A program made the translations under genes and the position numbers. A stretch of 64,000 nt of DNA from Chloroflexota bacterium. Lineage in GTDB: Bacteria; Chloroflexota; Anaerolineae; Anaerolineales; Anaerolineaceae. The DNA is taken from assembly GCA_009773005.1 (NCBI GenBank), contig WOUT01000001.1, positions 125,389-189,388 on the forward strand, written 5' to 3'. Under the pieces are notes generated by a model, which worked only from the letters and a program-made list of their open reading frames with translations, searched no databases and was not told the origin of the DNA. Of this stretch, positions 20,294 to 51,971 are shown piece after piece. The stretch's first letter is position 1; each line of letters opens with the position of its first letter.

Positions 20294-20322
20294 ACAGCCC
20301 AAGGCGAAAGCTCCAGGGCTGT
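20294..20322 (+). promoter_or_regulatory. Hairpin in the cold-shock mRNA leader
   Basis: ACAGCCC and GGGCTGT enclose a smaller GGC-GAAA-GCT hairpin. A short T-rich stretch (TTATATTTG) follows, so it could be a weak terminator/attenuator or a thermosensing leader structure. The stem sequence is repeated in the terminator after the gene, which allows alternative pairing. Confidence 0.5.
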
Positions 20323-20393
20323 TTATATTTGACCGCTCCGAGAGAACGAAACAATCCTAAAAAATAGTAAGTTTTGCTATAGGAGGCAAAAAA

Positions 20394-20606
20394 ATGTCAG
20401 AACGTATCATCGGCACGGTCAAATGGTTTAACGGAACCAAAGGCTACGGTTTCATCTCCCGCGAGGGTGGAGAGGATGTATTCGTACATTTCTCTGCAAT
20501 CCAGGGTGATGGCTATCGCAATCTCGAAGAAGGTCAGAAGGTTGAATTTGTAATCGAAAAAGGCCCCAAAGGTCTTCAGGCCAGCAATGTAACAATTGTA
20601 AATTAG
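20394..20606 (+). CDS. Cold-shock protein (CspA family)
   Basis: The 70-residue single cold-shock domain has RNP1 KGYGFI and RNP2 VFVHF on an OB-fold, starting with [14 protein letters not shown]. It binds single-stranded RNA/DNA as an RNA chaperone. AGGAGG lies eight bases before the ATG, one of the strongest ribosome-binding sites in the window. A long structured leader and its own terminator make it a single-gene unit. Confidence 0.96.
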
Positions 20607-20622
20607 TTTACATGCCATTTGA

Positions 20623-20656
20623 AACAGCCCCTGAGATTTAGGGGCTGTTTTTTTTA
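20623..20656 (+). terminator. Rho-independent terminator of the cold-shock gene
   Basis: AACAGCCCC and GGGGCTGTT flank a short loop and are followed by eight or more T. The hairpin overlaps the last codons of the convergent recombinase gene, whose stop is at 20638. Confidence 0.9.
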
Positions 20657-34993: not shown

Positions 34994-35279
34994 GAGAAGT
35001 ATTCGTGATGAAGTTGTATATATCGCAAATGGGAAACTTGAAGCAGAATCTGTAAAAATCTTGCTTGAGTCGTTTGATATCCCTGCTTTTATTAATCAAG
35101 AATCTGCGGGATCAACTTTTGGATTAACAGTTGGGATTTTAGGTGAGGTTGAAGTTATCGTTCCATTGTCGTACGTTACTGAGGCCAAGAAGATCATCGA
35201 GGAAATGATAAATGGCAAATTAGAACTACATGATTCACAAGACGATTTATTCGAGGATTCAAATGAAGAAAATAATTAA
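34986..35279 (+). CDS. DUF2007-like putative signal-transducing protein
   Basis: The 97-residue product matches the small DUF2007 fold: EVVYIANGKLEAESVKILLES, FINQESAGSTFGLTVG and VEVIVPLSYVTEAKKIIEE, then an acidic tail. Members are thought to sense or bind partners, but the function is not established. It overlaps the mrfB-like gene by 8 bases and is the last gene of the operon. Its stop codon overlaps the stop of the convergent nucleotidyltransferase gene. Confidence 0.8.
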   Translation: MFKRSIRDEVVYIANGKLEAESVKILLESFDIPAFINQESAGSTFGLTVGILGEVEVIVPLSYVTEAKKIIEEMINGKLELHDSQDDLFEDSNEENN

Positions 35280-35890
35280 TTCGGCTTTGGTTTTATTCTT
35301 TCGTATTCTTCTGGAGAATCAAGGTCAGCAAGTATATTTGAGCTTTTAACTGGGTAGTAACTGATATCTTCAGTGTGTAAATTAATGAAATCCCTCAATG
35401 TCTTGGGAACCTGGATCTCTAGCAATTCAGGTACGAATTTCTGAGGAATAAGCCAAGGGTGTCCTCTGCGCCAGTTATAACTAGGTATAACTAGTTTATC
35501 TTTATTACTTTGATGCTGATTAACCATACCAATAATATCTTCACTGGTGATCATTGGCTGGTCACCCAAGGCTATAAATACACCATCTACGGTTTCATCT
35601 ATTGTGGAAAGCCCTTTTTTTACAGAATCGACCATTTCACCATTTTCAAATTTTTCATTAAATATTGTATTAACCCCAAATTTCTTTACCTCAGCCTCTA
35701 CTTCTGATCGATATCCCCCGCTTACAACGACGATCTCTCCAATTGAACATCTTTGAAAAACATCAATGATTCTTCCTAAAATTGTGGTATTCCCCCATGG
35801 AAGTATTTGTTTACATTGTTTCATTCTTATGGAGAGACCGGCTGATAAAATAATTGTGGAATATTGACTACACGCATTATTTATTTTCAT
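35276..35890 (-). CDS. MocA/MobA-like nucleotidyltransferase (second copy)
   Basis: The 204-residue product has the nucleotidyltransferase signature LSAGLSIRMKQCKQILPWG and the metal-binding region VFIALGDQPMI. This family (MocA, YgfJ) attaches CMP to molybdopterin to give the cytosine dinucleotide cofactor of XDH-type enzymes, or GMP in MobA. It overlaps a paralogue by 14 bases and is last in the molybdenum-hydroxylase/F420 run. Nucleotide choice is not certain from the motif. Confidence 0.83.
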   Translation of the reverse strand: MKINNACSQYSTIILSAGLSIRMKQCKQILPWGNTTILGRIIDVFQRCSIGEIVVVSGGYRSEVEAEVKKFGVNTIFNEKFENGEMVDSVKKGLSTIDETVDGVFIALGDQPMITSEDIIGMVNQHQSNKDKLVIPSYNWRRGHPWLIPQKFVPELLEIQVPKTLRDFINLHTEDISYYPVKSSNILADLDSPEEYERIKPKPN

Positions 35891-36476
35891 AAGCCTTGAT
35901 TAGTTTTCGATAATCGTCGTTTGTGTCGCTATCGAGTAAGATTCTTCGATCTTCCCAATCTACTGTTGCGGTTTTGAATTTATCGATTAGTTCCTTCCCT
36001 CCTTTATCACCTTCCAACGCAAGTAACTCACTTATGCAATTTGGTTTAAAAAGAATGGGCGGACAAGTCTTATTGCCTACTCTCGTTGTCACGATTTCTG
36101 CATCTTCGCTACTAGATTTCTTCATAATTTCCGTAATTAATTCCTCAGGAACTTGAGGTTGGTCGCACAATAAAAATAAAAACGCCTGGCTTTTAGAACT
36201 AAGCGCGATAATCCCTTTTTTTATTGAACTACTTTGTCCGGATTGCCAATTTAGGTTTCTTGTAATTATTACATTTTTATTTTCGATATTCTTTTCTACT
36301 TCTTGATAACATGCGCCTGTAACAACGATCACAGGGTTTAAGTTTACATTTATTGCAACTTTTATAACTTGGTTAATAAATGATTTCCCAAACCAATCAA
36401 GAAGTTGTTTTGGTCTTCCTAGTCTTTTTGAACTTCCCCCTGCTAAAATGATCCCCGCAATATTTTCATTTTTCAT
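35877..36476 (-). CDS. mocA: MocA-like molybdenum cofactor nucleotidyltransferase (first copy)
   Basis: The 199-residue product has LAGGSSKRLGRPKQLLDW near the N-terminus and LFLLCDQPQVP in the middle, as in MocA/YgfJ proteins that make molybdopterin cytosine dinucleotide. It overlaps the XDH-type large subunit gene by 11 bases, so it very likely matures that enzyme. A divergent paralogue follows directly. Two tandem copies may serve two hydroxylases or two different nucleotides. Confidence 0.85.
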   Translation of the reverse strand: MKNENIAGIILAGGSSKRLGRPKQLLDWFGKSFINQVIKVAINVNLNPVIVVTGACYQEVEKNIENKNVIITRNLNWQSGQSSSIKKGIIALSSKSQAFLFLLCDQPQVPEELITEIMKKSSSEDAEIVTTRVGNKTCPPILFKPNCISELLALEGDKGGKELIDKFKTATVDWEDRRILLDSDTNDDYRKLIKAYENK

Positions 36477-38688
36477 TTTGAGAGATTTTAGTAAATACGC
36501 GTTCTGCTGTCAGTGGAAACTCGTCAAACCAAATACCAATGGCATTATGAACTGAAGATACGGCTGCAGGAGCAAATGGCAGGTATGGCATTTCGCCAAT
36601 GCCCCTGACGCCCCAAGGACCTATTAGGTCTGGGTATTCCAAAACAATTGATACTACTTTTTCAGGAATATCCAAAACAGTTGGAATTAAATAAGTAGAA
36701 AATTTATCCGTTAGAACCCTGCCCTTCTTTTGGATGAACTCTTCTTGAAGTGTATACCCTGCAGCTTGGACAATTGCACCTTCAATCTGACCTTCCACTT
36801 GTTGCGGATTAACTGCCAGCCCAACATCATCAGCACATATAACATTTGTAAGTTTAATTTGACCAGTTTCAATATCTACTAGACATTCAACGGCCTCAGC
36901 TACATATCCATAAGCAAAATTTGGTTCACTTTTGCCTGTCTCAGGATCTAAAGGCGTTGTTTTTGGTGGTCGATATTGAAATTCAGCAACTGCAGGTCTT
37001 TCCTCATTTTTCCATTTTTCCAAGGCAATATCAGCAGCGCCTTTTATTGCATTGCCGGCCATAAAAGTCATTCTTGACGCACTGACGCTCCCGGAGTTAA
37101 GTGTAAAAGCGGTATCAGAAGCAATAAGCGAAATTTTTTTCATTGGTAGATTTAAGGCTTTTGCTGCCATCTGTACAAAAACGGTATGAGATCCTTGTCC
37201 TACTTCAGCACCGGCATGACGCAGTACCGCATGCTCGATCTCAGATTTTCCATATAGCTCGATGATTGCCCAACAGTTTTCTGGAGCTCCAAAAGAAAAC
37301 CCAATATTCTTATACCCACATGCAAAACCAATTCCTTTACGTAAGTAATTTTGATTTTGAGTTGCTCCAGATTCGGGGTAGAAATATTGACCCTTCTGAT
37401 CCAACTTCCAACCTGCTTTTACCGCACAAGCAGCAATTGCCTTTTCTATTGTCACCCCCTTAGGAAGCGGAGTTCCTACAGATAGTAAATCTCCCTCTTT
37501 TATCAGGTTTTTCATTCGAATCTCTACGGGGTCGATATTTAACCTTTCAGCGATTTTGTTAATTTGCAACTCAGCAGAAAATGCTGCCTGTGGTCCGCCA
37601 AATCCCCTAAATGCGCCATTAGGAATATTATTGGTGTAAATTGCATATGAGTCTACTTTTACATTTGGAATATTATAAGGACCGGTGCAAAGCAGTGTTG
37701 CATTTCCCAATACTTTTGTAGAGGTGTAAATATATGCGCCGCCATCGGCATAGATTTCAACTTCTGCTGCGGTGATTATTCCCTCTTTGGTTGCGCCCCA
37801 TTTTGTTTTTATTGTATAAGGATGCCTTTTGTGATGCCCAATTATAGATTCCTCACGAGTCCAAATAATCTTTACTGGACGGTTGATACCCTTTTCTTTT
37901 AATCGAAAAGCAGCTAGCGCAAGAACAATTTGAACAGACATGTCCTCCCGGCCACCAAATGCTCCGCCAATAGCCGGATAAATGACCCGGATGGAATCCA
38001 GCGGTAAATTTAGAGCATGAGCGATTTGCTCCTGATCTTCGTGTGCCCATTGCCCTCCCACAACGACAGTAATCCTGCCTTCTTCGTCATAATAACAAAT
38101 GCCGGCTTCTGGCTGTAAATAGGCATGCTCTTGTGCCGGAGTATGGTACGTGCTCTCAACAATAACATCGGAGTTCGATAACGCATTACTTGTATCCCCT
38201 TTACGAACCCGGTAATAACAAAATGTGTTAACCCCTTTGTCTGGATGAAGAATAACAGAATTCTCCCGCAAGGCTTCTTCTACGTTTGAAACGATTTCGA
38301 GCTCTTCAAACTCGACATCAATTAGATCTCTTGCTTTGATTGCAGATTCTTCAGATTCAGCAACAATTAGTGCTATCTGATCTCCAATAAATCTGACGCG
38401 ATCGGCAAACGCTTTATTTGAACCCGGACCACATAAAACTGGTTGGTCTGCAAAAATTAGCCCATATTCGTTATTTGGAACATCCTTAGCAGTCAATATT
38501 AAGATGACTCCTGGAATTTTCTCAGCTTTTTTTGTGTTTACAGATTTGACAATTGCATGAGGAACTCCAGAAAAAAGTATTTTCATGCAAAGTTGACCCT
38601 GTAAATTATAATCACCAGGAAACAGAGCATCACCTGTTACCTTCGCTCGCGCATCAATACGATTAATCGACTTCCCAAACTCCGACAT
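36466..38688 (-). CDS. XDH-family molybdopterin-binding subunit
   Basis: The 740-residue product starts with the Ald_Xan_dh a/b hammerhead domain (INRIDARAKVTGDALFPGD) and continues with the Mo-cofactor domains. The Q-loop GGQWAHEDQEQ, the Mo-loop IGGAFGGREDMS, the Arg/Phe substrate region AFRGFGGPQ, GAEVGQGSHTV and the active-site Glu in VRGIGEMPYLP are present. With the FAD/2Fe-2S fusion protein encoded just upstream it would form a complete hydroxylase of the xanthine-dehydrogenase type. Substrate is inferred to be a purine or other N-heterocycle. Confidence 0.9.
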   Translation of the reverse strand: MSEFGKSINRIDARAKVTGDALFPGDYNLQGQLCMKILFSGVPHAIVKSVNTKKAEKIPGVILILTAKDVPNNEYGLIFADQPVLCGPGSNKAFADRVRFIGDQIALIVAESEESAIKARDLIDVEFEELEIVSNVEEALRENSVILHPDKGVNTFCYYRVRKGDTSNALSNSDVIVESTYHTPAQEHAYLQPEAGICYYDEEGRITVVVGGQWAHEDQEQIAHALNLPLDSIRVIYPAIGGAFGGREDMSVQIVLALAAFRLKEKGINRPVKIIWTREESIIGHHKRHPYTIKTKWGATKEGIITAAEVEIYADGGAYIYTSTKVLGNATLLCTGPYNIPNVKVDSYAIYTNNIPNGAFRGFGGPQAAFSAELQINKIAERLNIDPVEIRMKNLIKEGDLLSVGTPLPKGVTIEKAIAACAVKAGWKLDQKGQYFYPESGATQNQNYLRKGIGFACGYKNIGFSFGAPENCWAIIELYGKSEIEHAVLRHAGAEVGQGSHTVFVQMAAKALNLPMKKISLIASDTAFTLNSGSVSASRMTFMAGNAIKGAADIALEKWKNEERPAVAEFQYRPPKTTPLDPETGKSEPNFAYGYVAEAVECLVDIETGQIKLTNVICADDVGLAVNPQQVEGQIEGAIVQAAGYTLQEEFIQKKGRVLTDKFSTYLIPTVLDIPEKVVSIVLEYPDLIGPWGVRGIGEMPYLPFAPAAVSSVHNAIGIWFDEFPLTAERVFTKISQNEK

Positions 38689-38726
38689 TTCTTTAACTCC
38701 TGCTAACTGTTAGTCCACTGATTTTT

Positions 38727-39068
38727 TTAGTGTTTTACATCGAAAGGGCCAAACCTGGGTGGACCTAAATATTTATTTAAAGAAAATGTAACAATAGCGC
38801 TGACAAAGAACAAGAGAAAAGTGATGATAACTGCGTAGATCAGCCGTACAAATATATATGGATCTGAAAAACTTTCGTTAACGACATCCTCTGGAATGAC
38901 CAACCATTTCAATTTACTCCGGTTGTCTACAAGAATAGTTGATGCAGCATAAGATATTAAAGGAATGACAGTTATCAGTACAAATCCAATACCGCGCCAA
39001 ATCGGGTGAGTCCGTTTTTTATTGTCATCTTTTTTAACTTCTCTTCTATACATACCATGTTTTGGCAT
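38727..39068 (-). CDS. Small two-helix membrane protein inside the hydroxylase operon
   Basis: The 113-residue product has a basic N-terminus (YRREVKKDDNKKR), a membrane helix at about 27-47, a short outer loop with KWLVIPEDV, a second helix at about 74-97 and the tail LGPPRFGPFDV. It lies between the two subunit genes of one hydroxylase, 10 and 38 bases away. Nothing in the family of molybdenum hydroxylases predicts such a protein. A membrane anchor or electron-transfer partner is possible but unproven. Confidence 0.7.
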   Translation of the reverse strand: MPKHGMYRREVKKDDNKKRTHPIWRGIGFVLITVIPLISYAASTILVDNRSKLKWLVIPEDVVNESFSDPYIFVRLIYAVIITFLLFFVSAIVTFSLNKYLGPPRFGPFDVKH

Positions 39069-39078
39069 ATTTTCCTTC

Positions 39079-40485
39079 TTACTTTTCAGATGCTTTTTCG
39101 ATTGCGGAGAGGATTTTATAATATCCTGTACACCGACAAAGATTGCCAGTTATTGCCTGCTTAATTTCATCCTTCGAAGGACTTGTTTTTTCCTCCAACA
39201 GTTTTACTGCTGACATAACAAAGCCAGGTGAACAATAACCACATTGTATTGCACCTTCTTGAATAAACGCATCTTGCACCCTGTGCAGTTGACCGTTCTG
39301 CGTGATACCCTCAATCGTAACAACTTTAGTACGATGAGCACGAGCCGCCGGCACCAGACATCCCATTACAGCAATACCGTCAAGGAATACTGTACAAGCG
39401 CCACACTCTCCCTCTCCGCATCCTTCTTTTGTTCCTGTGAGCAACGCGTTTTCCCTAATCAGATCAAGTAAGTTTTTTTTATGAACATTAATAAATTCGT
39501 ATGTCTTTCCATTAATCTCAATTTCGATTTTAGTTGTATGATCAAATTCTAAAGATTTCTCCTGCATGGGTTTATACGTTGAAGTGTTTTGACCCCAAAG
39601 GACAACAGGATCCTGGTATTCCACTTTCTTGCTTACAGCGGCTTGATCAAGACCGCGTTTAACCAATACACTTACCATTTTCCGTCGGTAATTCGCAGAA
39701 GATCGAATGTCGGTTATTGGAGAAGTTTCTTCAGATGCGATTTTTCCAGCCTCAACAAATAAGTTATCTGATATTTTTTTACCAAGCAAATATTTTTCTG
39801 TTTTATTCGCTCTGATAACAGTGGGCGCAACAGCGCCGATTGCGATTCTCGCCTCAAAGATTTCTTGATCAATAATGTTTATTACAACTGATACGTTTAG
39901 TACAGAAATAGCCTGGGCTCGCCGAAGTGCATGCTTGTAAAAAACACTTTTTAAATTATCAGATAGCCCTTTAAAATAAATTTCCGTAACGATTTCCCCA
40001 GGCTCCATTTTTGTTTTTCTTACTCCGGAATAGAAGTCATTTATCTCTATCTCTCTAATCCCTTTATTAGAAGCGAGTACAATTTTTGCATTTAATACCA
40101 TGAGCGCTGAAATGGTATCATTTGCAGGCGATGCAGTAACCACATTTCCTATGATGGTTCCGCGATTTCGAATTTGTGGCGACCCCACTTGCGCGCAAGC
40201 CTGAAAAAGACAAGCTGCATATTTTTGGATAATTTTGGATTTAAAGCAGTGATTGTGCGTTGCAAGTGGACCTATGTGCACATATTCTTTATTATCAATA
40301 GTTATCTGATCGAGACCCTCAATTCGGGAAATATCGATAATTTCTGTCACAGCAGGATGTAAACCCCGTTCAATTTCCAGAAGCAGGTCTGTCCCACCTG
40401 AAATCAATTTTGCGCTATTGGTATATTTAGAATATAGCTCAACAGCATCATGTAGATTGTTTACGATGAAGTATTTCTCCCACAT
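39079..40485 (-). CDS. XDH-type FAD subunit fused to 2Fe-2S subunit (FAD first)
   Basis: The 468-residue product joins two usual separate subunits. Residues about 1-290 are the FAD-binding domain (LISGGTDLLLE, RNRGTIIGNVVTASPANDT). Residues about 310-468 hold the two 2Fe-2S clusters: GCGEGECGACTVFLDG, and QCGYCSPGFVMSA with NLCRCTGY. In eukaryotic XDH the order is 2Fe-2S then FAD, so here it is reversed. It would pass electrons from the 740-residue Mo subunit encoded nearby. The electron acceptor is unknown. Confidence 0.9.
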   Translation of the reverse strand: MWEKYFIVNNLHDAVELYSKYTNSAKLISGGTDLLLEIERGLHPAVTEIIDISRIEGLDQITIDNKEYVHIGPLATHNHCFKSKIIQKYAACLFQACAQVGSPQIRNRGTIIGNVVTASPANDTISALMVLNAKIVLASNKGIREIEINDFYSGVRKTKMEPGEIVTEIYFKGLSDNLKSVFYKHALRRAQAISVLNVSVVINIIDQEIFEARIAIGAVAPTVIRANKTEKYLLGKKISDNLFVEAGKIASEETSPITDIRSSANYRRKMVSVLVKRGLDQAAVSKKVEYQDPVVLWGQNTSTYKPMQEKSLEFDHTTKIEIEINGKTYEFINVHKKNLLDLIRENALLTGTKEGCGEGECGACTVFLDGIAVMGCLVPAARAHRTKVVTIEGITQNGQLHRVQDAFIQEGAIQCGYCSPGFVMSAVKLLEEKTSPSKDEIKQAITGNLCRCTGYYKILSAIEKASEK

Positions 40486-40495
40486 GTTTCCACCT

Positions 40496-41287
40496 TTAAT
40501 TGGATTTCATCATCTTTCCTGAACTTGCATTTGCAACCATCATAACTTCAGCAATGATGCTTAAGGCTATTTCCTGAGGGGTTTCTGCATTAAGCTCCAG
40601 TCCCATTGGCGAATGTATTTTATCAATTTTTTCCTTGGTTATACCTTTATCGAGTAGTTCTTTTTTTGTTAACTCCCAACGCCGTTTGGAACCAATTACA
40701 CCTATGTATCCGGTTTCTGTTTCTAGCAATACTGGAAGACCTTCGACATCAACGCTAGAACTCTTTGTAGTAAGCACCAAGAATGTGAAAGGATTAATCT
40801 TTACCAGTTGTGGAATTTCTGAAATTGGGCATATTATATATTCATCAGCTTCCGGAATATAAACAGGATTACAAAACTCTGGTCTTTCGTCTGTTATCAC
40901 GACACGATAGTCCAGCCACTTTCCCAAATGGGCAACTTGTTTTCCAACATGACCTGCACCAACGACAACCAGGGTTAATTTCGGAATGATCGGTTCCACA
41001 TAAACCTCAACTTGACCACCACAAATCCCGGGATCGCCTTTTTCAGGATTTACCAGGCTGTATTTTAAAATTTTGTTTTTTCTTTCCTTTAAAGCTTTTA
41101 ATGCTTCTTCTATTACTAAATGTTCAATTAAACCTCCACCGACAGTTCCAGAAATCTTCCCATCTGAAAAGACTAGCATCTTTGAGCCTTCATGGCGAGG
41201 AGTAGACCCGCTAGATGAAACAATCGTACAAAAAACAAATGCTTCTCCGGTTTTCTCAATGGAGGCAATTTGTTGATAAATCGACAT
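40496..41287 (-). CDS. xdhC: XdhC-family molybdenum hydroxylase maturation factor
   Basis: XdhC binds molybdenum cofactor, helps add the terminal sulfido ligand and inserts it into XDH-type enzymes. The 263-residue product has the XdhC/CoxI domain (SSSGSTPRHEGSKMLV, GTVGGGLIEH) and a C-terminal Rossmann domain (LVVVGAGHVGKQVAHLG). It overlaps the pyrophosphatase gene by one base and precedes the FAD/2Fe-2S gene by 10, fitting a role with these hydroxylases. Confidence 0.9.
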   Translation of the reverse strand: MSIYQQIASIEKTGEAFVFCTIVSSSGSTPRHEGSKMLVFSDGKISGTVGGGLIEHLVIEEALKALKERKNKILKYSLVNPEKGDPGICGGQVEVYVEPIIPKLTLVVVGAGHVGKQVAHLGKWLDYRVVITDERPEFCNPVYIPEADEYIICPISEIPQLVKINPFTFLVLTTKSSSVDVEGLPVLLETETGYIGVIGSKRRWELTKKELLDKGITKEKIDKIHSPMGLELNAETPQEIALSIIAEVMMVANASSGKMMKSN

Positions 41288-42633
41288 TAATCCTCCAATA
41301 ATCCTAATACAACCGGTAATAATTGTTTTTTTCTTGATACAACTCCTTCAGCTAACCGGGTGTCGTCACTGAGAGTAATATACGGTAACTCATCAAGAAT
41401 AGCAGGAGGATTTGATAAAATAAGTCTGCTTGACCCTCTAACAATATCTGTCACCATTAACATCGCAAAATTTACTTTCTTATTCGCCCTGAGTGAATCA
41501 AGTGCGGTTTGGAGCATTGAAAGGTGTTCGTTAATTTCGTTCAGATCGCTAACTTCAGCTTGTGCAATGGCAAAATCATAAACACCCGCATTGTACACTT
41601 TCAGGTCACTTGTAACCACATCTTGTGCGGTACGATTACTCAATCCTGCGCTGGCAGAAAGCACTTTTATTCCAAAACTATGGCTTGTCTCCAGTTCCAG
41701 TCGACTTCCTTTGACAAATGCCCACCTTGAAAGACGTTCGGCGGCTTTTTTATCTCTCTCAGTTGTCGTCGGACTAGTTAAATTTAGGGTATCCGAAAGA
41801 AGCCCTGCAAGCATTAATCCAGATATAGCAGGTGGAGCGCTAAACCCGGATTCTTCCATTCGTTCTGATACGAGAGTGCTTGTGCTTCCAACAATATCTA
41901 CAGACATTTTAATCGGGATATGTGTTGAAGGGTTACCTAATCGATGGTGATCCAGGATTTCAAGAAGTTGAGCTTCTTCAAGCGACGCAACGGATTGCTG
42001 CGCTTCGTTGTGATCTACTAACACAATTCTGATTCTCGGTGGGTTAAGAAGATCTCTCTGTCGGCAAATCCCGACGTAGTTGCCTTTTTCATCAACAACC
42101 CAAAACTCATCCCCTTCTTCTCTTAAAATGCGATTTACCACGTCTTTTATTTTTGTGTTGACGTTAAATTTTAAGATATTTGTGTCTGCCGCGTCCTTAC
42201 AGGGCAGTTCAAGAATTTTGCTGATCCCTATATCCTGGTTTTTAGGATTAACCCCTACCATCTTTCCCATAAAATTAAAAAGACTTCTCCCAGTGATCAA
42301 ACCAAATGGATCTCCTCCAGGATTTAATACAGGAGCAATTCCACCGGTTCTTGTAGCTATCGCCCACGCATCTCTAAGGGGGCTCTCTGGCGTTGTAGAA
42401 TCTAACCTTCTAACGACCGATTCAAAACGAGGACTGGCATCCGTAATTAATACCGGCGCTTCCATTTTTAATAATTTTAATATCCAAGCAGTTTGGGTAT
42501 TTGTTGCACCAGCACGGGCTGCAACAGTATCTAATCCATCTCGCTCCCTCAATAACCAAGCATATCCGATTGCCGAAGCTATTGAATCAGTGTCAGGGTT
42601 AACATGTCCAACAACGTATACTTGGGAGCCCAT
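41287..42633 (-). CDS. ppaC: Mn-dependent inorganic pyrophosphatase with CBS insert
   Basis: This family II (DHH) enzyme splits PPi. The 448-residue product has VGHVNPDTDS at the N-terminus, VLVDHNEAQQSV, the DHH in EILDHHRLGN and the DHHA2 domain with SRKKQLLPV at the end. An insert of about 135 residues (65-200) contains a CBS pair and no DRTGG domain, as in nucleotide-regulated CBS-PPases. It lies inside the hydroxylase/F420 operon, next to genes (mocA, cofC) whose reactions release PPi. Confidence 0.92.
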   Translation of the reverse strand: MGSQVYVVGHVNPDTDSIASAIGYAWLLRERDGLDTVAARAGATNTQTAWILKLLKMEAPVLITDASPRFESVVRRLDSTTPESPLRDAWAIATRTGGIAPVLNPGGDPFGLITGRSLFNFMGKMVGVNPKNQDIGISKILELPCKDAADTNILKFNVNTKIKDVVNRILREEGDEFWVVDEKGNYVGICRQRDLLNPPRIRIVLVDHNEAQQSVASLEEAQLLEILDHHRLGNPSTHIPIKMSVDIVGSTSTLVSERMEESGFSAPPAISGLMLAGLLSDTLNLTSPTTTERDKKAAERLSRWAFVKGSRLELETSHSFGIKVLSASAGLSNRTAQDVVTSDLKVYNAGVYDFAIAQAEVSDLNEINEHLSMLQTALDSLRANKKVNFAMLMVTDIVRGSSRLILSNPPAILDELPYITLSDDTRLAEGVVSRKKQLLPVVLGLLED

Positions 42634-42651
42634 TCGATTAATATACCTTTC

Positions 42652-45549
42652 TCAAACACTCTTTAATGAACGCCAAATTCGTTCTGGCGTTGCTGGAATT
42701 TGGTTTAGTTTTGCACCACAAGCATTTTGGATTGCATTTGCAACAGCTGGGGCGACACCATCCAATGGAATTTCTGCAACAGCCTTTACACCAAATGGGT
42801 GGGTTGGTTCAAATGATTCAACAAACATCGCTTCTATTTCTGGCATTTCGTCAACTCTAAAAATATGATAATCTTTTAAATCTTTTTCCCGAGCTACCCC
42901 TTTTTGGTCATAAAGCATTTCTTCGCATACTGCGTACCCCAACGCCTGAACCATACCACCTTCAATTTGACCTGACGCAGTTAATGGATTAACAATCACG
43001 CCAGAATCAACTGCCATCACAAGTTTATCAACAATCAATTTTCCTGTCTCAATATCTACAGTGACCTCAGCAAATTGAGCTGCAAATGGCGGAGGTGAAG
43101 ATTTTGACATAAATGAGGCAATACCCATAATTTGTTCTTGATCGTTGTGATGAAGTGTTTCAAGTGCGATATCTTTTAGGGAAATTCTTTTACGATTCTT
43201 TGCAATTGCATATTTGTCTTTTAAGACAATATCAACTGGAGAAAGTATTTCTTCAGCAGAAGACAACAAAGCAGCGGCGCGTATCTTAATCATGGCAGCA
43301 GCTTCTTCCGCTGCTTTGGTTACCGCTCCTCCAGAAATGTATGTTGTGCTCGATGCATACGCTCCTTTGTCAAATGGTGTGAAATCCGTGTCTGAAGAAT
43401 AAACTAGAATATCATCAAGTGGAACGCCCAAAACTTCTGCTGCCATTTGCCCTAAAACGGTATCGGATCCGGTTCCAAGATCTGTAGCGCCAATCAGCAA
43501 GTTGAATGACCCGTCGTCATTCATTTTTATACTGGCTGCACCCATATCGAGATATGGAATTGCCGTGCCTTGCATAACCATGGCAACTCCAACCCCTTTA
43601 CGCAAGTGAGGTTTGCCTGGAATGTTTTTCCAATTTACATTTAAAGCTTTTTCTTTCCATCCAATCGCTTTTTTACCCATTTCAACGCATTTTTCAAGAC
43701 CCACGGTGTGAATAATCTCAGGTTTCGGTTCGCGTCCTTCACTCCATGCCGTGCTAAATGGGTGCAATTCACCAGAACGCAGTGCATTTTTCAGCCTAAA
43801 CTCTATCGGATCAAGACCGAGCTCGTTCGCGATCAACTCCATTTGCCGTTCAACAGCCCAATATCCTTGAGGTACTCCATATCCGCGGTAAGCGCCAGCA
43901 GGTGGATGGTTTGTGTATACAACGTCTGCATAAAACCGAATATTCGGCGCCTTGCGATATTTTCCGTCACCAACATAAAGCGCCATGGCTTTGTGTCCAG
44001 TATTTCCTGTAACAGTCAATGCATGACAACCATAGGCGCCTGTGTCAGTTAATACTCGCATCTCGTTAGCAGTTATGGTTCCGTCTGCCATCACGCCAGT
44101 CTTCATCCATAATTTCATCGGATGTCTGGATCTTGAAGCTATAAATTCCTCTTCACGTGTATATTCAAAACGAACAGGACGTCCGGTTGCAATCGTAAGA
44201 TGCGCTGCAACATCTTCGACCAATATTTCTTGTTTTCCACCAAAACCTCCACCTATTCTAGGCTTGATCACTCTAATCCGTTTTATCGTGAGATTTAAGA
44301 CTGGTGAGAGTATTCTTCGTGCGTGAAATGGAACTTGGGTACTTGATCGAATAACAAGTCTGTCATTTTCGTCCCAATACGTAATGACCACGTGAGGTTC
44401 GATATGAGCCTGTTGCACTTTGGGTACTTCAAATTCGTTTTCGAAGATTTTGTCTGCTTCTTTAAAACCAGAATCAACATCTCCGATATCGATCCTGATC
44501 TCAGCAGCTAGGTTCTTTATTGGGTTGGAATTTGCAAAATTTATGTATTCTGGTTCATCATGGATTTTTGGAGTTTCCTGTAACATTGATTTCGTTGAAT
44601 CCAATACAGCGGGCAGTTCTTCATATTCGACTTCTATCAGGTCAATGGCTTGTTGTGCGATTTCTTCTGTCTCCGCAGCAACAAATGCTACCCGGTCGCC
44701 AACGAACCTCACCTTATTATCAAGGCTAAAGGTATCTAATGGACCAGGTATCGGGTCGGATTGGCCTGCGGTTGAATACACTACACGCGGTAAATCTTTC
44801 CAGGTTAGTACGGAGTGTACACCTGCTAGTTCCTTGGCCTTCTTTATGTTGATACTTTTTATTCGGGCATGAGCAACAGTGCTTAAAAGGACTTTTGCTA
44901 CTAACATCCCTTGAAGATCAATATCCGCGGTAAAGGCTGGTTTTCCTTGAACCAATTTAATTGCATCAACCTTTATTTCATTTTTCCCAACCGTACTAAA
45001 TCGATTTAATTCTATGTCAGATTGAATCTCTGGGCTCCAGGTTGCTTTTTCTATCACTTTCGAGTCTTGACTTTCCATCGACGCTGCTTTAATTGCGCTG
45101 ACAGGTTTTTTATACCCAGTACACCGGCATAGAACACCCGAAATAGCATCTCGAATTTCCGATTCTTCAGGATCAGGGTTTGAAGCCAACAGTGACTTAC
45201 CGGCAAGCACCATTGCTGGGGTGCAATATCCACATTGGATGGCGCCTGATTCGATAAATGCTTGTTGTATCGGATCCAGTCCTACAGACTTCTTCCAACC
45301 TTGGTCTGGTCGTTCTCCAATTCCTTCAATCGTCTCAACTTTATGCCCATCTGCTTGCGCCGCAAGCATTGAACATGAATTAATCGGCTTTCCATCAAAC
45401 AACACAGTACAAGCCCCACATTCACCGGATTTGCACCCACCTGATTTCGCACCGAAAAAACCAAGCCGTCGTAAAACAGTTAGCAAGTTTTCATTGACAT
45501 TAATTTCCGTGGCAGTTGGAGTCTTGTTAATCCATAGATGTAAGATCAT
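42652..45549 (-). CDS. XDH-family hydroxylase, 2Fe-2S and Mo domains fused (XdhD-like)
   Basis: The 965-residue product has 2Fe-2S domains at about 1-155 (KSGECGACTVLFDG, QCGYCTPAMVLAG, LCRCTGYKKPV) followed by the Mo-binding part: hammerhead VQGKPAFTADIDLQ, GGGFGGKQEILVED, AYRGYGVPQG, TDLGTGSDTV and the Glu in KAVAEIPLDG. This layout and length match E. coli XdhD and the selenium-dependent molybdenum hydroxylase type. The FAD subunit is encoded by the next gene upstream in the operon. Substrate unknown, and a purine or similar heterocycle is likely. Confidence 0.9.
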   Translation of the reverse strand: MILHLWINKTPTATEINVNENLLTVLRRLGFFGAKSGGCKSGECGACTVLFDGKPINSCSMLAAQADGHKVETIEGIGERPDQGWKKSVGLDPIQQAFIESGAIQCGYCTPAMVLAGKSLLASNPDPEESEIRDAISGVLCRCTGYKKPVSAIKAASMESQDSKVIEKATWSPEIQSDIELNRFSTVGKNEIKVDAIKLVQGKPAFTADIDLQGMLVAKVLLSTVAHARIKSINIKKAKELAGVHSVLTWKDLPRVVYSTAGQSDPIPGPLDTFSLDNKVRFVGDRVAFVAAETEEIAQQAIDLIEVEYEELPAVLDSTKSMLQETPKIHDEPEYINFANSNPIKNLAAEIRIDIGDVDSGFKEADKIFENEFEVPKVQQAHIEPHVVITYWDENDRLVIRSSTQVPFHARRILSPVLNLTIKRIRVIKPRIGGGFGGKQEILVEDVAAHLTIATGRPVRFEYTREEEFIASRSRHPMKLWMKTGVMADGTITANEMRVLTDTGAYGCHALTVTGNTGHKAMALYVGDGKYRKAPNIRFYADVVYTNHPPAGAYRGYGVPQGYWAVERQMELIANELGLDPIEFRLKNALRSGELHPFSTAWSEGREPKPEIIHTVGLEKCVEMGKKAIGWKEKALNVNWKNIPGKPHLRKGVGVAMVMQGTAIPYLDMGAASIKMNDDGSFNLLIGATDLGTGSDTVLGQMAAEVLGVPLDDILVYSSDTDFTPFDKGAYASSTTYISGGAVTKAAEEAAAMIKIRAAALLSSAEEILSPVDIVLKDKYAIAKNRKRISLKDIALETLHHNDQEQIMGIASFMSKSSPPPFAAQFAEVTVDIETGKLIVDKLVMAVDSGVIVNPLTASGQIEGGMVQALGYAVCEEMLYDQKGVAREKDLKDYHIFRVDEMPEIEAMFVESFEPTHPFGVKAVAEIPLDGVAPAVANAIQNACGAKLNQIPATPERIWRSLKSV

Positions 45550-45568
45550 ACTTCCTCATATTGAAATT

Positions 45569-46318
45569 TTATTTAAGTTCTTTTAATAATCTCATAGCCA
45601 GGTTTGTACCTGCATCTTGTCGGTATACAGAAGAGGCCCATTGATCAGATGAATCTGCTAAAGCATTCTTAATCATAGTGATTAAATCGCCATTTACATC
45701 ACCGTCAAAGGCTGTGACAGGGTTATCTCCAAAACCGCCAAAAGTTATTCTTGTTCGACCTGTTTTCCATTTTGCCACCGCGCAGCAAATTGTTGGTTGA
45801 TCGTATGGACTGCGCCCCACTGACTCAAATACGACTTGCACGTCATTGTCAACTTTTATTTCAGAAATTAAAGCGGCCTTTTTCCAATCATGTCGTTTTG
45901 GCAGCCAATCTTCCAGAGATATACATATTTCACCAGGGAGCCACACAATTTGAGCATTAAGCGCTAACATTACTGTGAGAAGCGGAGATCGACCGTTTTC
46001 TGAAACAATTAGACCTGCAATTGTTCCCATTACACGTTGATTCTTTGAACACTGTATCTTTATCGCCTCAACTACAGAACGGTTATCCTGATAAAAAACG
46101 ATCATTTCTTCAAGTGTTGTTGTAGCGCCAATTACAGTTAAGGTTTCTATTATCTTGATGTAATTTAAGCCAATGGACTGCAAATCTACAACTGCTATGT
46201 CATCACTTCTTTTTGCGAGAGTCAAACCACCCCCCAATGGAATAGTAATTGGCTCGTTTCTTTGTAGCAATTCAACAGCTTCGCTAAGGGTTGCAGGTCT
46301 GAAGTACTCTAAAATCAT
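45569..46318 (-). CDS. XDH-family FAD-binding subunit (YgfM-like size)
   Basis: The 249-residue product starts MILEYFRPATLSEAVELL and has the FAD-binding GGGLTLAKRSDDIAVVDLQ and QRVMGTIAGLI regions of CO-dehydrogenase/XDH medium subunits. It is shorter than the usual 280-290 residues and close to YgfM of E. coli, which also neighbours xdhD. It is 19 bases before the 965-residue subunit gene and would complete that enzyme. The FAD-pocket sequence is quite divergent. Confidence 0.85.
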   Translation of the reverse strand: MILEYFRPATLSEAVELLQRNEPITIPLGGGLTLAKRSDDIAVVDLQSIGLNYIKIIETLTVIGATTTLEEMIVFYQDNRSVVEAIKIQCSKNQRVMGTIAGLIVSENGRSPLLTVMLALNAQIVWLPGEICISLEDWLPKRHDWKKAALISEIKVDNDVQVVFESVGRSPYDQPTICCAVAKWKTGRTRITFGGFGDNPVTAFDGDVNGDLITMIKNALADSSDQWASSVYRQDAGTNLAMRLLKELK

Positions 46319-46368
46319 TTCAATCCCTTTCTAATTTGCGCTCTGACCTCTAATGACTGAACTTGGGG

Positions 46369-47367
46369 TTATTTTTGTGCAAATGTATCAATCAGCAAAT
46401 GAACATCGCCGCCAACTGGATATAGAATGGGACATGTGCAACCATTATTAACGTACTCAGCAACTTTTTTCTTTGCCTCTTCAGGTGTACCTGAAGCGGT
46501 AATTTTTATGATCAATTCTTCTGGAACCAGATGCTTGGCTTTTGAGATCTGTTCATGAGTAGCCGGCCACCCCAAAATGGATTGAATTTTCTCAACAACA
46601 TCCATCGAAACGCCTGAAGCTTTTGCGATATGCGGCTGTTGTGCCAGGTACTGTGTCAATAATTCTCTGGTAGTATCGATTGCTTTGTCATGATCATTGT
46701 CAACCGAACAGACGATTAATTGAGGTCGATCTATAGCATCAATAGTCTTTCCACTCTTTTTTGCACCAGCAATGAGTAAATCCATTGCTTTATTGTTGTA
46801 TTCAGGCGGGACACAATAATTCAAAACAACCCCATCTGCTATTTCTCCAGTCATTTCCATCATGTTATCGCCTGTTGCGCCAATGTAAACAGGAACATTG
46901 CGAGGTTCTTTTCTACCATGGACAACATCAAGCTCAATTCCATAAACTTGTATAAATTCACCTTCAAAACTTACCCGTTCCATATTTAATAACCGCTTAA
47001 GAATCGTAATTGTTTCCTTCATTGCGGTTAATGGTTTCTTTCGATCGATTCCCACATTCTTGGCGAGAGGATCCCACCATGCGCCAATTCCACAGATGAT
47101 TCTATCTGGCGCTAAATCGTCCAGGGTTAAGAATGTTGATGCAAGTAACCCTATATTCCTTGTCCAGTTATTGATGACACCTGAACCCACCTTCAATTTT
47201 TCTGTTACGGCGGCATAGGCCGCCATAGGAACTATTGCATCCCGTACAAGCCGGCTTTCTGCTTGCCATACTGCTTCAAATCCTCGGCTTTCTGCGTATT
47301 TTACATATTCCAAACCATCCCTAAGCTCGTGGGCATCCTGCAGATACAAAGCGACTCTTTGCTTCAT
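46369..47367 (-). CDS. LLM-family F420-dependent oxidoreductase (Mer-like)
   Basis: The protein is a luciferase-like monooxygenase-family TIM barrel: [79 protein letters not shown]. This pattern is nearest to F420-dependent methylenetetrahydromethanopterin reductase and its bacterial relatives. The ATG at 47367 with GGAGGA just upstream is preferred over the track's TTG and gives 332 residues. Its position directly before cofC, cofD and cofE supports use of F420. The substrate is not known. Confidence 0.83.
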
Positions 47368-47387
47368 AGTTCCTCCATACAAAATAT

Positions 47388-48008
47388 TTATACTGTGATT
47401 TTTTTGATATTGTTTTCAATTTCTTTTAACAGGATCAAGTCTTCAGGTAGATCGAGATCAAGCCCAAGCACTTCTGACTCAACAATTTGTACGCGCGCAC
47501 CAGCTTTTTCAGCCGCAGCCCTGTGAATATTAAACGATCCTGGACCGTAACAAAACTCAATCAATTCTGCTGGATTAATGTATAAAGCATTGGTTCCGTC
47601 TTTCCTTCGATCTGGAGCGATAATTACTTCTGGTGGAGTGCTTGCGTTACCAATAAACTGTCTGACATGTTCAGGTTTTACGAGAGGAAGATCAGCAGGT
47701 AACACTAGAATTTCATTTGCGTGATATGCTTTTGCTACCATCGAAGCTCTTCTTAATGCAGTATTTAATTCAGGGCTTCCATCCTCTAATACAGTTCTGG
47801 CTGAAAATTCTCTGGCAATGGCAAGAGCAGAAGGATCACGACTTACTACCAATACTGTGTCAATTTCCTCCAGCGCTTTTAAGGTTTTCAATGTATTTAT
47901 TAACATTGATTGATTCAATGCTGTTCGTTCGTCTTCATTCAATATACTTGATAACCGTGATTTCCCTCTTTTTAGTGGTTTTACAGGAATAATCGCCCAA
48001 AGCGTCAT
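47388..48008 (-). CDS. cofC: 2-phospho-L-lactate (or PEP) guanylyltransferase CofC/FbiD
   Basis: CofC activates 2-phospholactate, or in many bacteria phosphoenolpyruvate, with GTP for F420 assembly and releases PPi. The 206-residue product starts [20 protein letters not shown], as in the family, and has [14 protein letters not shown] and [19 protein letters not shown]. It overlaps cofD by 4 bases. Whether it takes phospholactate or PEP cannot be read from this sequence. Confidence 0.92.
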
Positions 48009-48955
48009 GTGGTTGATTCCTCTAAAATTTTTACTGCAAATCTAAAAACATCAGCCGCGAGCCTTTTTTTTGAACTTTCATTACTCATTATTGTATCAGT
48101 AACGAATGGAATTATACCCCACGAAGAAATTGTATCGCATTCATTTTGATTTTTTGTATCCAGAACATATCCTTTAATAATCTCTTTATAAATACGAGCT
48201 ACCTCAAAAGCTGAAGGAACAATCCCCAATTCAAAGAATATTTTCGCAGCTGGACCTTTTATGGCAGAATTTCCGACAATCGGGGAAACCGCAATAGTTG
48301 TTTTCTTACTGAGGATTTCTTTACAGTTCTCAACTTCCAATATTGGCATAATACTTAACCATGGGTTTGAAGGGCAAATCACCACGATATCAGCTTGGTT
48401 CAGTGCTTTTTTTGTTTCATTTGTGAGCTTGGCATTCTTAATACCTTCAAACTTATAATTTCGCAACTTTGGTCTAAATTGATGTTTTACAAAATATTCT
48501 TGGAATGGTAAATCGCCATATTCGTCAGTCTCAATAATTGTAGAGACTTTCTCGTTTGTCATAGGATAAACTATTGTTTTTACATCAAGTTTTTCACATA
48601 AGGTTTGGGTAACTTGGGTTAAATCTTGACCCAAGGCAAGTAATCTGGTCCGCTCTAGATGTAATGCCAAATCTTTATCACCAATTTGAAACCACGACAG
48701 TGAATCAAGTTTTATTAAAGATTTTAAACAATTCCAGGTGTCATCTTTTCGTCCCCATCCACTTGTTTGATTTGATAATCCTGCGAGTGTGTAGCAAATT
48801 GTATCGACATCTGGGCAAATTCTAAGTCCCAGGTGAGTGAAATCATCACCAGTATTAACAATTACGGTTAGATTCTCAGTGGGTAAATTATGGGCTAATC
48901 CCAATACTAGTTTAGCCCCGCCCACGCCACCAGCTAAAGCAACAACATTTTTCAT
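48005..48955 (-). CDS. cofD: 2-phospho-L-lactate transferase CofD/FbiA
   Basis: CofD transfers the activated phospholactyl or enolpyruvyl group onto the deazaflavin FO to make (dehydro-)F420-0. The 316-residue product shows ALAGGVGGAKLVLGLA, VNTGDDFTHLGLRICPDVDT, YTLAGLSNQTSGWGR and ICPSNPWLSIMPIL, all hallmark segments. It lies between cofC (overlap) and cofE (50 bases). Confidence 0.94.
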   Translation of the reverse strand: MKNVVALAGGVGGAKLVLGLAHNLPTENLTVIVNTGDDFTHLGLRICPDVDTICYTLAGLSNQTSGWGRKDDTWNCLKSLIKLDSLSWFQIGDKDLALHLERTRLLALGQDLTQVTQTLCEKLDVKTIVYPMTNEKVSTIIETDEYGDLPFQEYFVKHQFRPKLRNYKFEGIKNAKLTNETKKALNQADIVVICPSNPWLSIMPILEVENCKEILSKKTTIAVSPIVGNSAIKGPAAKIFFELGIVPSAFEVARIYKEIIKGYVLDTKNQNECDTISSWGIIPFVTDTIMSNESSKKRLAADVFRFAVKILEESTT

Positions 48956-49005
48956 AATTTTTATTACTTTTCTTTCTCAAGCAAAACAAATTTGTATAAT
49001 AGCGC

Positions 49006-49788
49006 TTATCGAAATAGGTCCAGTTCTTCTGGTCTTATCAATTCAGCAAGTGCCGCTTCCTGTAATTCATATGGAAATCCGCGTACATGAATACAAGGTG
49101 TACCTTCTGCTGCCTGACCCATTAATAGGGAAGCGCCTGCTGCCAATTCATCTGCCGCCCCTACTGTGGTAATTTTTAAGCGAAATCCGAATAAATCTTC
49201 CTGACCCCGCAAATCAACGACTCCAGGCAGGCCAGAAAGACCAATTGTTATACCCACAGTGCCATTTCTCCAGGCACGGCCGTGAGAATCAATGATCAGA
49301 ACACCTACACGAACTCTGTAGTATTCTTGTAAACGCATCCTGATTCCTTTTGCAGACTTGTCAGCATCTTCTGGAAGCAACAATACCCAGTTTTCGGAAT
49401 CTTCTCCAACTTGTACGACATTGGAATGGTCAATTCCAGCATTAGCACAAATAAAACCGTTTTTATGTTCAACGATCAGTGTATTATTTTTTGCTCTGAT
49501 AACTTTCTTACTTTCGCATAAAACAAGTTCAATGAATCGAGCGTCTTTTTGTGTAATTCTTGCCAGTTTGACTGCCTCTTTTGAAGGAATAATTTGTGAA
49601 TAATTAACCAATCTCCCTTCAGTTTTTGAGACAATTTTTTGCGCAAGAACGATTACGTCCCCGTCTTGTAATTTAATTGATTGGTTATTTAATGAATTGA
49701 TAAGAATCTCACTTAAATTATCCCCAATTTTTATGTTGGGAATATTTTCAAGTGATGTAAAAGTTAAGATTTTATTGGATGAACTCAC
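49006..49788 (-). CDS. cofE: Coenzyme F420-0:L-glutamate ligase CofE
   Basis: CofE adds gamma-linked glutamates to F420-0 using GTP. The 260-residue product has GDVIVLAQKIVSKTEGR, NAGIDHSNV, LIIDSHGRAWRNGTVGITIG and DLRGQEDLFG followed by the DELAAGASLLMGQAAEG block. It is the single-domain archaeal-type form. The extra nitroreductase-like domain of actinobacterial FbiB is absent. The GTG start is 2 bases after the npdG stop. Confidence 0.93.
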   Translation of the reverse strand: MSSSNKILTFTSLENIPNIKIGDNLSEILINSLNNQSIKLQDGDVIVLAQKIVSKTEGRLVNYSQIIPSKEAVKLARITQKDARFIELVLCESKKVIRAKNNTLIVEHKNGFICANAGIDHSNVVQVGEDSENWVLLLPEDADKSAKGIRMRLQEYYRVRVGVLIIDSHGRAWRNGTVGITIGLSGLPGVVDLRGQEDLFGFRLKITTVGAADELAAGASLLMGQAAEGTPCIHVRGFPYELQEAALAELIRPEELDLFR

Positions 49789-49790
49789 TC

Positions 49791-50456
49791 TTATGCTCGT
49801 TTGATACCGGTAATTTTTATTCCTGCAGTGTGTTCTCCAAATTCTTTGTTAATCCCGATTAAAATGGAAGTTAATCCTTCTGCGACAACTGAATTTTCAA
49901 TAGGGCCTGCATCCCAGCCAGTCATGCCAGCCCTTTCTACCAATTCCAAAACAATACTTCTCGCCTCTTTAGAGCTCCCGCATACTAAAACGTCGCAATC
50001 AATATCTTGGTCTGTCAGTAATTTTTCATAGGAGATGTTTTGAAATGCAGAAACTACCTGCACATTTTCTCCAAGTATTAATTTTGCTTCTTGAGCGGCA
50101 CTACCTGCGGGTGGCATTTGAACTCTTGTAACTTTAGGTGGAACCAATGGGACAGTAACATCAATTAATATTTTTTCCTTCAAGCACTCTTTTAAACTTT
50201 CCAATAATGCTTTATGTCCCGAAAATGGGATCGTTAAAACAGCAATGTCGCACCAATCAGCTGCCTGATGATTTTCCAGACCGGTGATCGCAACTTTAGC
50301 GTTTCCAACTAATTGGTTTAATTCATCTGCAACAATTTGGGCTTTCTCGACTTGCCTGGACCCGATGACTATCTCATATCCGGCTTTTGCCCATCGATAT
50401 GCAAGTCCTTTCCCTTCTTTTCCAGTACCACCTAATATTGCAATTCGATTTATCAT
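49791..50456 (-). CDS. npdG: F420-dependent NADP oxidoreductase
   Basis: This enzyme moves hydride between F420H2 and NADP. The 221-residue product starts MINRIAILGGTGKEGKGLAYRWA, the family Rossmann motif, then IVIGSRQVEKA for NADP phosphate binding. It continues with VLTIPFSGHKALL, VVSAFQNISYEKL and a C-terminal VAEGLTSILIGINK. Its place between cofE and the amidohydrolase suggests that it links F420 to cellular NADPH. Confidence 0.92.
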   Translation of the reverse strand: MINRIAILGGTGKEGKGLAYRWAKAGYEIVIGSRQVEKAQIVADELNQLVGNAKVAITGLENHQAADWCDIAVLTIPFSGHKALLESLKECLKEKILIDVTVPLVPPKVTRVQMPPAGSAAQEAKLILGENVQVVSAFQNISYEKLLTDQDIDCDVLVCGSSKEARSIVLELVERAGMTGWDAGPIENSVVAEGLTSILIGINKEFGEHTAGIKITGIKRA

Positions 50457-50477
50457 GCCTTAGTCCAATCTATATTT

Positions 50478-51824
50478 TCAAAATTGTCTCTCGTATCTTT
50501 TCCAAACTTCTTTTGAAAGCTCGCATGCGGTACTCGAAATTTTTTGCTCATCCAAAAAGACCAATTGTCTATCTTTCATAAGCAGTTTTCCATCTACTAT
50601 GGTTGTAGTCACCATGGAGTCTCTAAACCCAAATAAGATTTGCCAAGGCAGATTCCCGGTAGAAACTTCTGTGATTGGCGTATAATCCACAAGGATTAAA
50701 TCGGCTTTTGCTCCAATCTCGATCTTTCCTATTCTTGAACCATTGAAAAAGTGTGTGGCTAAATCGGAATTATTATAGACTGCCAAGTCAATTACAGAAG
50801 AGCCATTCATTCTGCGTGGATCTTGATTCCAAAGTTTGTGGGCAAGGTAACAAGTTCTCCATTCATCCCACATCGCATTTGAGAACCCGTCGTTACCCAT
50901 GCAAACTTTTACACCCATTCTTATCATAGAATCAATATCTGCCATCCCGACCGCATTATTCATGTTCGATCGAGGTTGGTGCGTGACCCATGTTTTTGTT
51001 TCTACCACTTGGGCAATTTCACGCATATCCATGTGGACGCCATGGACTACTATGGAATTTTCGCCTAAAAGTTCATGTTTATCTAACCGGTCGATTACGC
51101 GTAAACCTGTTTTTATGATGCTATCATATTCATCGACGCTATGCTCGGCAACATGAATGTGAATTCCGAAATTATCGGGTAAAACACTCCTGCATTTCTT
51201 GAGTGTTTCCTCTGAAATTGTTAAGCTTGCGTGCAATCCAAATGTTGCAGAAACTTTGTTGTCAAAAACTTTATTGTTATTAACTTTTTGGATCATCCGT
51301 ACGTTTTCAGCAATCCCTTCATCGGCTTTACCGTACCCACCCCTGTCAGTTACCTCATAACAAACAACTCCTCTAAGTCCTGTATCGCGGAAAGCCTCCT
51401 CGATAATATCCAAAGACCCAGATATTGAATTAGGAGAGGCATGATGATCAAATAGTGTTGTCGTTCCATGTTTTATGGCATCGACCATACTAACAAGAGA
51501 AGAATACTTAATATCTTCGTTTGTTAAGGATTGGTCTAGTGGCCACCACAACTTTTGCAAAATTTCAGGAAAATCAGCGGGGGCAGATCCATGGATATTC
51601 ATTCCCCTTGAAAATGCTCCATAAAAATGCGTATGAGCACAGATCAAACCTGGCATTAAGAATTGCCCTTTTGCATCCAAAATTTCGTCAGTTGAATATT
51701 TTTCCAGCAAATCTTTTTGAAAACCGATATCTTGAATTATTGAATCCGAAATTCGAATTGCATGGTTATGCAAGATCTCGTTCGGTTTCCCCCATGTAAT
51801 AATTGTGGAATTAATAATCAGCAT
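50478..51824 (-). CDS. ssnA: SsnA-like amidohydrolase/chlorohydrolase
   Basis: The 448-residue product is a TIM-barrel amidohydrolase with metal-binding PGLICAHTHFYGAFSRG, HGTTTLFDHHASPNSISGSL, HIHVAEHSVDE and CMGNDGFSN. These segments, especially DHHASPN, match SsnA, whose gene sits next to ygfK, ygfM and xdhD in E. coli. The ATG follows GAGGT at 4 bases. As first gene of the operon it may deaminate or open an N-heterocycle (a guanine-like substrate). The exact reaction is not established for SsnA. Confidence 0.88.
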   Translation of the reverse strand: MLIINSTIITWGKPNEILHNHAIRISDSIIQDIGFQKDLLEKYSTDEILDAKGQFLMPGLICAHTHFYGAFSRGMNIHGSAPADFPEILQKLWWPLDQSLTNEDIKYSSLVSMVDAIKHGTTTLFDHHASPNSISGSLDIIEEAFRDTGLRGVVCYEVTDRGGYGKADEGIAENVRMIQKVNNNKVFDNKVSATFGLHASLTISEETLKKCRSVLPDNFGIHIHVAEHSVDEYDSIIKTGLRVIDRLDKHELLGENSIVVHGVHMDMREIAQVVETKTWVTHQPRSNMNNAVGMADIDSMIRMGVKVCMGNDGFSNAMWDEWRTCYLAHKLWNQDPRRMNGSSVIDLAVYNNSDLATHFFNGSRIGKIEIGAKADLILVDYTPITEVSTGNLPWQILFGFRDSMVTTTIVDGKLLMKDRQLVFLDEQKISSTACELSKEVWKRYERQF

Positions 51825-51929: not shown

Positions 51930-51971
51930 AAAATGGAATATAATCGTTGAGTGTTAAAAAGGAGAATTAAT

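Follow-up and report, generated by a model that had tools for sequence, protein, structure and literature searches.

The question raised by this locus is why genes for molybdenum (Mo) hydroxylases reside in the same operon as genes that finish coenzyme F420. The stretch of DNA analyzed (the window: 64,000 nucleotides, positions 125,389 to 189,388 of contig WOUT01000001.1, assembly GCA_009773005.1, from an Anaerolineaceae member of the Chloroflexota) carries, between residues 35276 and 51824, 15 consecutive open reading frames (ORFs) on the minus strand. The longest gap between them is 50 bases and several neighbours overlap by 1-14 bases, so that the compact layout reported in an earlier note on this DNA is borne out by the ORF list. 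Genes are transcribed in the order SsnA, NpdG, CofE, CofD, CofC, a luciferase-like hydride transferase (LLM), a YgfM-like FAD subunit (FAD249), a fused iron-sulfur and Mo hydroxylase (FeS-Mo965), pyrophosphatase, XdhC, a FAD/2Fe-2S fusion (FAD-FeS468), a small membrane protein (TM113), a Mo subunit of 740 amino acids (aa; MoL2) and two MocA-like proteins. The G+C content of the block (0.401) is at the same level as that of the window (0.397), and a terminator scan detected no internal terminators beyond chance level. The 15 genes are predicted to form one conserved operon. We read it, at roughly even odds (about 0.5), as a Chloroflexota variant of reductive purine degradation combined with a supply line for its own cofactor, of which FO, the deazaflavin core, would come from neighbouring organisms. 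New here are the presence of cofC, cofD, cofE and npdG in the same operon and the lack of FO synthase.

Protein families were assigned by Pfam and NCBIfam profile searches, using the curated NCBIfam cut-offs. These are passed by CofC, CofD, CofE, NpdG and SsnA; no equivalog cut-off is reached by the Mo proteins or the MocA-like proteins, whose names follow the nearest family. All the gene families recognized in the earlier note were found again, and the two genes it had left unnamed encode a Mn-dependent pyrophosphatase with a CBS domain and the 113-aa membrane protein (Table 1).

The block is not peculiar to this genome. CofD was detected in 76 of 101 order-level relatives, and in 20-kb stretches around 40 order-level CofD loci the order LLM-CofC-CofD-CofE-NpdG-SsnA recurs, usually with Mo-hydroxylase genes, the block being syntenic in about 28. 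Synteny extends to most of the Anaerolineaceae examined, related loci bearing the names Bellilinea, Longilinea, Leptolinea and Pelolinea, and the same gene set is found in other families as well. Searching with the 740-aa Mo subunit yielded 80 loci, many of them short stretches, with LLM in 32, CofC in 31 and CofD in 25. SsnA and CofD are inherited together: 66 of the 101 genomes have both, 18 neither, and 7 and 10 are discordant (Fisher p = 7e-8, uncorrected for genome relatedness). In the genus of the window nine genomes have CofD and SsnA, six have neither, and one has SsnA only, on a 3.3-kb contig ending inside the operon. LLM adjoins SsnA even when cofD is elsewhere or undetected (G022, G026, G027, G028, G035, G040, G055, G056). 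The earlier note had regarded absence from relatives as the sign of a chance association; searches around both CofD and Mo-subunit loci found the association present, and synteny together with the LLM-SsnA linkage led us to reject chance neighbourhood. The Mo subunit, the small membrane protein and the FAD/Fe-S fusion occur without F420 genes in other Anaerolineales, and therefore make up an independent hydroxylase module; in many relatives the Mo gene and the FAD/Fe-S gene flank a homologue of TM113.

Gene content varies among related loci. CofD is missing at some of them which have CofE, NpdG, LLM and SsnA (G026, G035, G055, G056, L093, L098, L099, L103, L130, L144) and, in most cases, CofC; CofD was not found anywhere in genomes G026, G035, G055 and G056. 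Operons of other relatives (L042, L049 and others) include genes absent from the window, encoding YqeB (TIGR03309), a 4HBT-type thioesterase that precedes LLM and, between CofD and CofE, a 2'-5' RNA ligase-like protein. The latter interval hosts in L069 a nitroreductase-like protein of about 200 aa, by eye similar to the C-terminal domain of FbiB, and no protein of this kind was found in the window. Around the operon, locus L073 (PNNN01000001.1) and the window show about 100% identity, and the L073 record, which bears the title Chlorobiaceae bacterium SW.3.66, is probably misassigned; Anaerolineaceae synteny was also seen in L112, titled Ca. Atribacteria.

The purine reading starts from E. coli. 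In this species, according to two reports, urate is reduced to yanthine by XdhD together with YgfM, and YgfK and SsnA reduce and open the ring with NAD(P)H (Li et al. 2025, PMC12507026); the pathway has been demonstrated in vitro, and the role of yanthine reductase has been proposed for an F420-type LLM of Chloroflexota (PMC12507026; PMC12990295). FeS-Mo965 and E. coli XdhD are reciprocal best matches (36% identity over the full length), and the same holds for FAD249 and YgfM (27%), yet both window proteins remain well under the NCBIfam cut-offs; the SsnA proteins are reciprocal best matches too (32%), and the catalytic HxH, HIH, AE and DG motifs are conserved. With the E. coli reductive uric acid cluster, xdhD-ygfM-ygfK-ssnA-hyuA-ygeW-ygeY-ygeX as given in PMC12507026, the window shares XdhD-like, YgfM-like and SsnA proteins, and accessory genes of the MocA/XdhC type. 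It differs in having an F420-type LLM instead of YgfK/UacX, in carrying npdG and the genes that finish F420 within the operon, in the unlinked HyuA and in the absence of YgeX from the genome. No YgfK/UacX ring reductase was found among the 15 operon genes, LLM standing in its place; the rest of the genome was not searched. Models of the selenium-dependent Mo hydroxylase system (yqeB/mocA/ssnA/xdhD), TIGR03312, TIGR03313 and TIGR03314, are nearest or near-nearest for three window proteins; a YqeB gene of TIGR03309 type (293 bits) is found in some relatives' operons, not in that of the window. The association of Mo hydroxylase genes with F420 genes described in the earlier note is confirmed; a link of SsnA/XDH (xanthine dehydrogenase) to an F420-type LLM in Chloroflexota is already in print (PMC12507026). 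The window provides an example of that predicted variant; the presence of cofC, cofD, cofE and npdG in the cluster and the missing FO synthase are unmentioned in the passages of that paper that were consulted.

LLM proteins are the most conserved of the operon, 25 orthologues being 71-92% identical to that of the window. Both family (PF00296) and predicted fold (AlphaFold model, pLDDT 84.7) place LLM among F420-dependent LLM hydride transferases, the nearest solved folds being the F420-dependent Mer, Fgd and Adf, ahead of FMN enzymes. LLM shares fold and family with Mer (methylene-tetrahydromethanopterin reductase), to which it is about 30% identical, and extending the alignment without gaps places LLM Tyr9 at the position of Glu6 of M. 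jannaschii Mer (mutant 8qq8). The best-supported reading of the model and the gene neighbourhood is that LLM would act as a F420H2-dependent ring reductase coupled to SsnA. Such a F420-linked pathway was the second of two alternatives offered in the earlier note, and agrees with the suggestion made for Chloroflexota in PMC12507026. Besides the LLM of the operon, the genome encodes a single further LLM protein (L228, TIGR03560), on contig C14, which has a G+C content of 53% vs. 40% in the window and may be a contaminant.

A scheme can be drawn for the whole operon. One or both Mo hydroxylases (FeS-Mo965 with FAD249; MoL2 with FAD-FeS468 and the small membrane protein) would interconvert oxopurines, as in the conversion of urate to 2,8-dioxopurine (yanthine). 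NpdG would pass hydride from NADPH to F420, and reduction of the oxopurine ring with F420H2 would fall to LLM instead of YgfK/UacX; by hydrolyzing the dearomatized ring, SsnA would pull the reduction forward. CofC, CofD and CofE would convert FO to charged F420, maturation of the Mo enzymes would depend on XdhC and MocA-like proteins, and the pyrophosphatase would clear the pyrophosphate released by CofC and MocA. FO itself probably leaks from neighbours such as methanogens and actinobacteria, and would be trapped by addition of the charged tail.

Several observations weigh against this scheme. The XdhD/YgfM-like pair is missing at about eight relatives' loci which keep LLM, SsnA and F420 genes, and G031 keeps SsnA (49%) without LLM or CofD. 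SsnA (32%) and FAD249 (27%) are distant from the E. coli counterparts, and no purine transporter is found among the operon genes. YgeX, which completes the route in E. coli, has no match in the genome or genus of the window, and was found in 12 of the 101 relatives. The HyuA homologue (TIGR02033, 518 bits; 38% to E. coli HyuA) resides on another contig (C38), unlinked to the operon, and genomes lacking CofD can encode proteins of this kind as well. The genome therefore does not contain the complete E. coli pathway to pyruvate as such, and the cell may process the resulting hydantoin or ureido compound in another way or excrete it. At L227, on contig C38, ABC permeases, a threonine-synthase-like pyridoxal phosphate enzyme and another PALP protein accompany the HyuA homologue, making this a candidate site for downstream steps. 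At L229, on contig C56, a second Se-dependent-XDH-like protein (903 aa) lies beside amidohydrolases and ABC genes.

The missing YgeX also favours a different view, possible if on the unlikely side, in which the same architecture serves a substrate other than urate or yanthine, be it another pterin, a pyrimidine or some N-heterocycle. The solved structure nearest to FeS-Mo965 is 4-hydroxybenzoyl-CoA reductase, and the 4HBT-type thioesterase gene adjoins LLM in several relatives. That SsnA belongs to its family, and that XdhD, YgfM and SsnA types occur here as a set, speaks instead for urate and yanthine.

The supply of FO is a separate matter. CofC, CofD and CofE are all above cut-offs, and the earlier note had spoken of coenzyme F420 synthesis; complete synthesis is not supported, since CofG/CofH (FO synthase; also FbiC) were not found in the genome of the window, and none of its 19 radical-SAM proteins resembles either. 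The assembly of this genome comprises 105 contigs (completeness 97.5%, contamination 3%), whose G+C content ranges from 0.37 to 0.55 in the stretches read; absence there is by itself a weak argument, which therefore rests on relatives. CofH and CofG are above cut-off in two of the 101 order-level genomes only, the same two (G040, G087), every candidate among the matches listed having been scored, and FO synthase is absent from 74 of the 76 genomes with CofD. CofD without CofH is found even in genomes of 1-10 contigs (G044, Longilinea arvoryzae; G045, G058, G071, G081), and at class level CofH accompanies CofD in only 3 of 54 genomes. In 400 Chloroflexota genomes CofD was detected in at least 277 and CofH, above cut-off, in at least 60, at least 58 of which have CofD, counts for which at most five candidates per genome were scored, so that large genomes may be undercounted.

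Membranes are permeable to FO, but not once the charged tail has been attached (PMC8498797); FO is typically present in the culture supernatants of producers (PMC11917521). Salvage and trapping are therefore the simplest reading: with no FO synthase detected, neighbours are the probable source of the FO, which would be retained once CofC, CofD and CofE have added the charged tail. No report of CofD-bearing genomes without FO synthase, or of FO salvage, was found in the literature, most subscription journals not being covered. The more novel reading, that FO is made in the cell by an unrecognized route lacking CofG/CofH and possibly using operon enzymes, is doubtful. It would fit with the wide occurrence of CofD without CofH in the phylum and with operon Mo hydroxylases having no known substrate. 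Yet none of the operon's enzymes would be expected to couple the two precursors of FO, Mo genes are absent beside several loci with CofD and no CofH (L060-L063), and according to a review CofG/CofH chemistry is universal in the producers studied. The broader proposal that Anaerolineae and many other Chloroflexota make FO without CofG/CofH, and that the F420 completed by this operon is devoted to a single ring-reduction pathway, is just as doubtful.

In a further reading, Mo hydroxylases would oxidize N-heterocycles and deliver electrons to F420, to be re-oxidized by LLM or NpdG. This was the first alternative of the earlier note, and both the common operon and the FAD and Fe-S parts of the two Mo enzyme sets are in line with it. 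No FrhB-like F420-reducing subunit was however found among the 15 proteins by Pfam and NCBIfam searches, Mo genes occur alone in other Anaerolineales, and NpdG already links F420 to NADP, a ready NADPH route; specific support is lacking, and we hold this flow improbable. Because Mer is its nearest solved relative LLM might act as a F420-dependent methylene-tetrahydrofolate reductase, a very improbable role which was dropped, MetF-type enzymes being present in 96 of the 101 genomes, that of the window included, and LLM being tied to SsnA.

Table 1. Genes of the predicted operon (window coordinates) and profile or structural matches of their products
Feature	Position	Strand	Matches
MocA-like nucleotidyltransferase 2	35276..35890	-	PF12804 103 bits; NF045665/TIGR03310 under cut-off
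MocA-like nucleotidyltransferase 1	35877..36476	-	PF12804 116 bits; nearest TIGR03310 MocA, under cut-off
MoL2, XDH-type Mo subunit, 740 aa	36466..38688	-	PF01315/PF02738/PF20256; nearest pucD and Se-dependent XDH, under cut-offs
TM113, small hydrophobic protein	38727..39068	-	no family match; syntenic homologues; membrane character read from sequence
FAD-FeS468, FAD + 2Fe-2S fusion subunit, 468 aa	39079..40485	-	PF00941, PF03450, PF00111, PF01799
XdhC/YqeB-type Mo-hydroxylase maturation factor	40496..41287	-	PF13478, PF02625; 35% to N-terminal half of E. coli YqeB
Mn-dependent inorganic pyrophosphatase + CBS domain	41287..42633	-	PF01368, PF02833, PF00571; nearest NF011443 317.7 bits, slightly under cut-off 335
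FeS-Mo965, XdhD-like fused 2Fe-2S + Mo hydroxylase, 965 aa	42652..45549	-	nearest TIGR03313 699.7 bits, under cut-off
FAD249, YgfM-like FAD subunit, 249 aa	45569..46318	-	PF00941; YgfM reciprocal best match
LLM, F420-type luciferase-like hydride transferase (proposed ring reductase)	46369..47370	-	PF00296; AlphaFold model
CofC	47388..48008	-	TIGR03552 167.9 bits, cut-off 105
CofD	48005..48955	-	TIGR01819 287.2 bits, cut-off 257.45; nearest solved CofD/FbiA
CofE	49006..49788	-	TIGR01916 262.2 bits, cut-off 180.65
NpdG (NADPH:F420 reductase)	49791..50456	-	TIGR01915 207.2 bits, cut-off 149.8
SsnA-type amidohydrolase	50478..51824	-	NF005540 485.8 bits, cut-off 444; TIGR03314 445.3 bits, slightly under 455.5

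Next to the operon, a divergent M20 gene (51951-53366) was considered as YgeY and rejected, because it belongs to the dipeptidase family NF006053 and is absent beside SsnA in several relatives. Helicase, DUF2007 and DUF1385 genes are located nearby on the other strand in conserved synteny, and no link to the operon was seen. Farther away, at 20256-20653 on the plus strand, a match to the Rfam cspA thermoregulator (79.1, threshold 78) overlies the ORF of a 70-aa cold-shock protein (20394-20606), and may be driven by the coding sequence.

If the purine reading with FO salvage is correct, a low-potential deazaflavin would replace an iron-sulfur flavoprotein in purine-ring reduction in a large group of mostly uncultured anaerobes, whose operon would hold nearly all that F420 needs except the core. 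The gap at FO is also a simple genomic starting point toward a new FO pathway. Under salvage, FO would be a vitamin-like compound passing from methanogens and actinobacteria to Chloroflexota, and dependence on it could help explain the poor growth of Anaerolineaceae alone.

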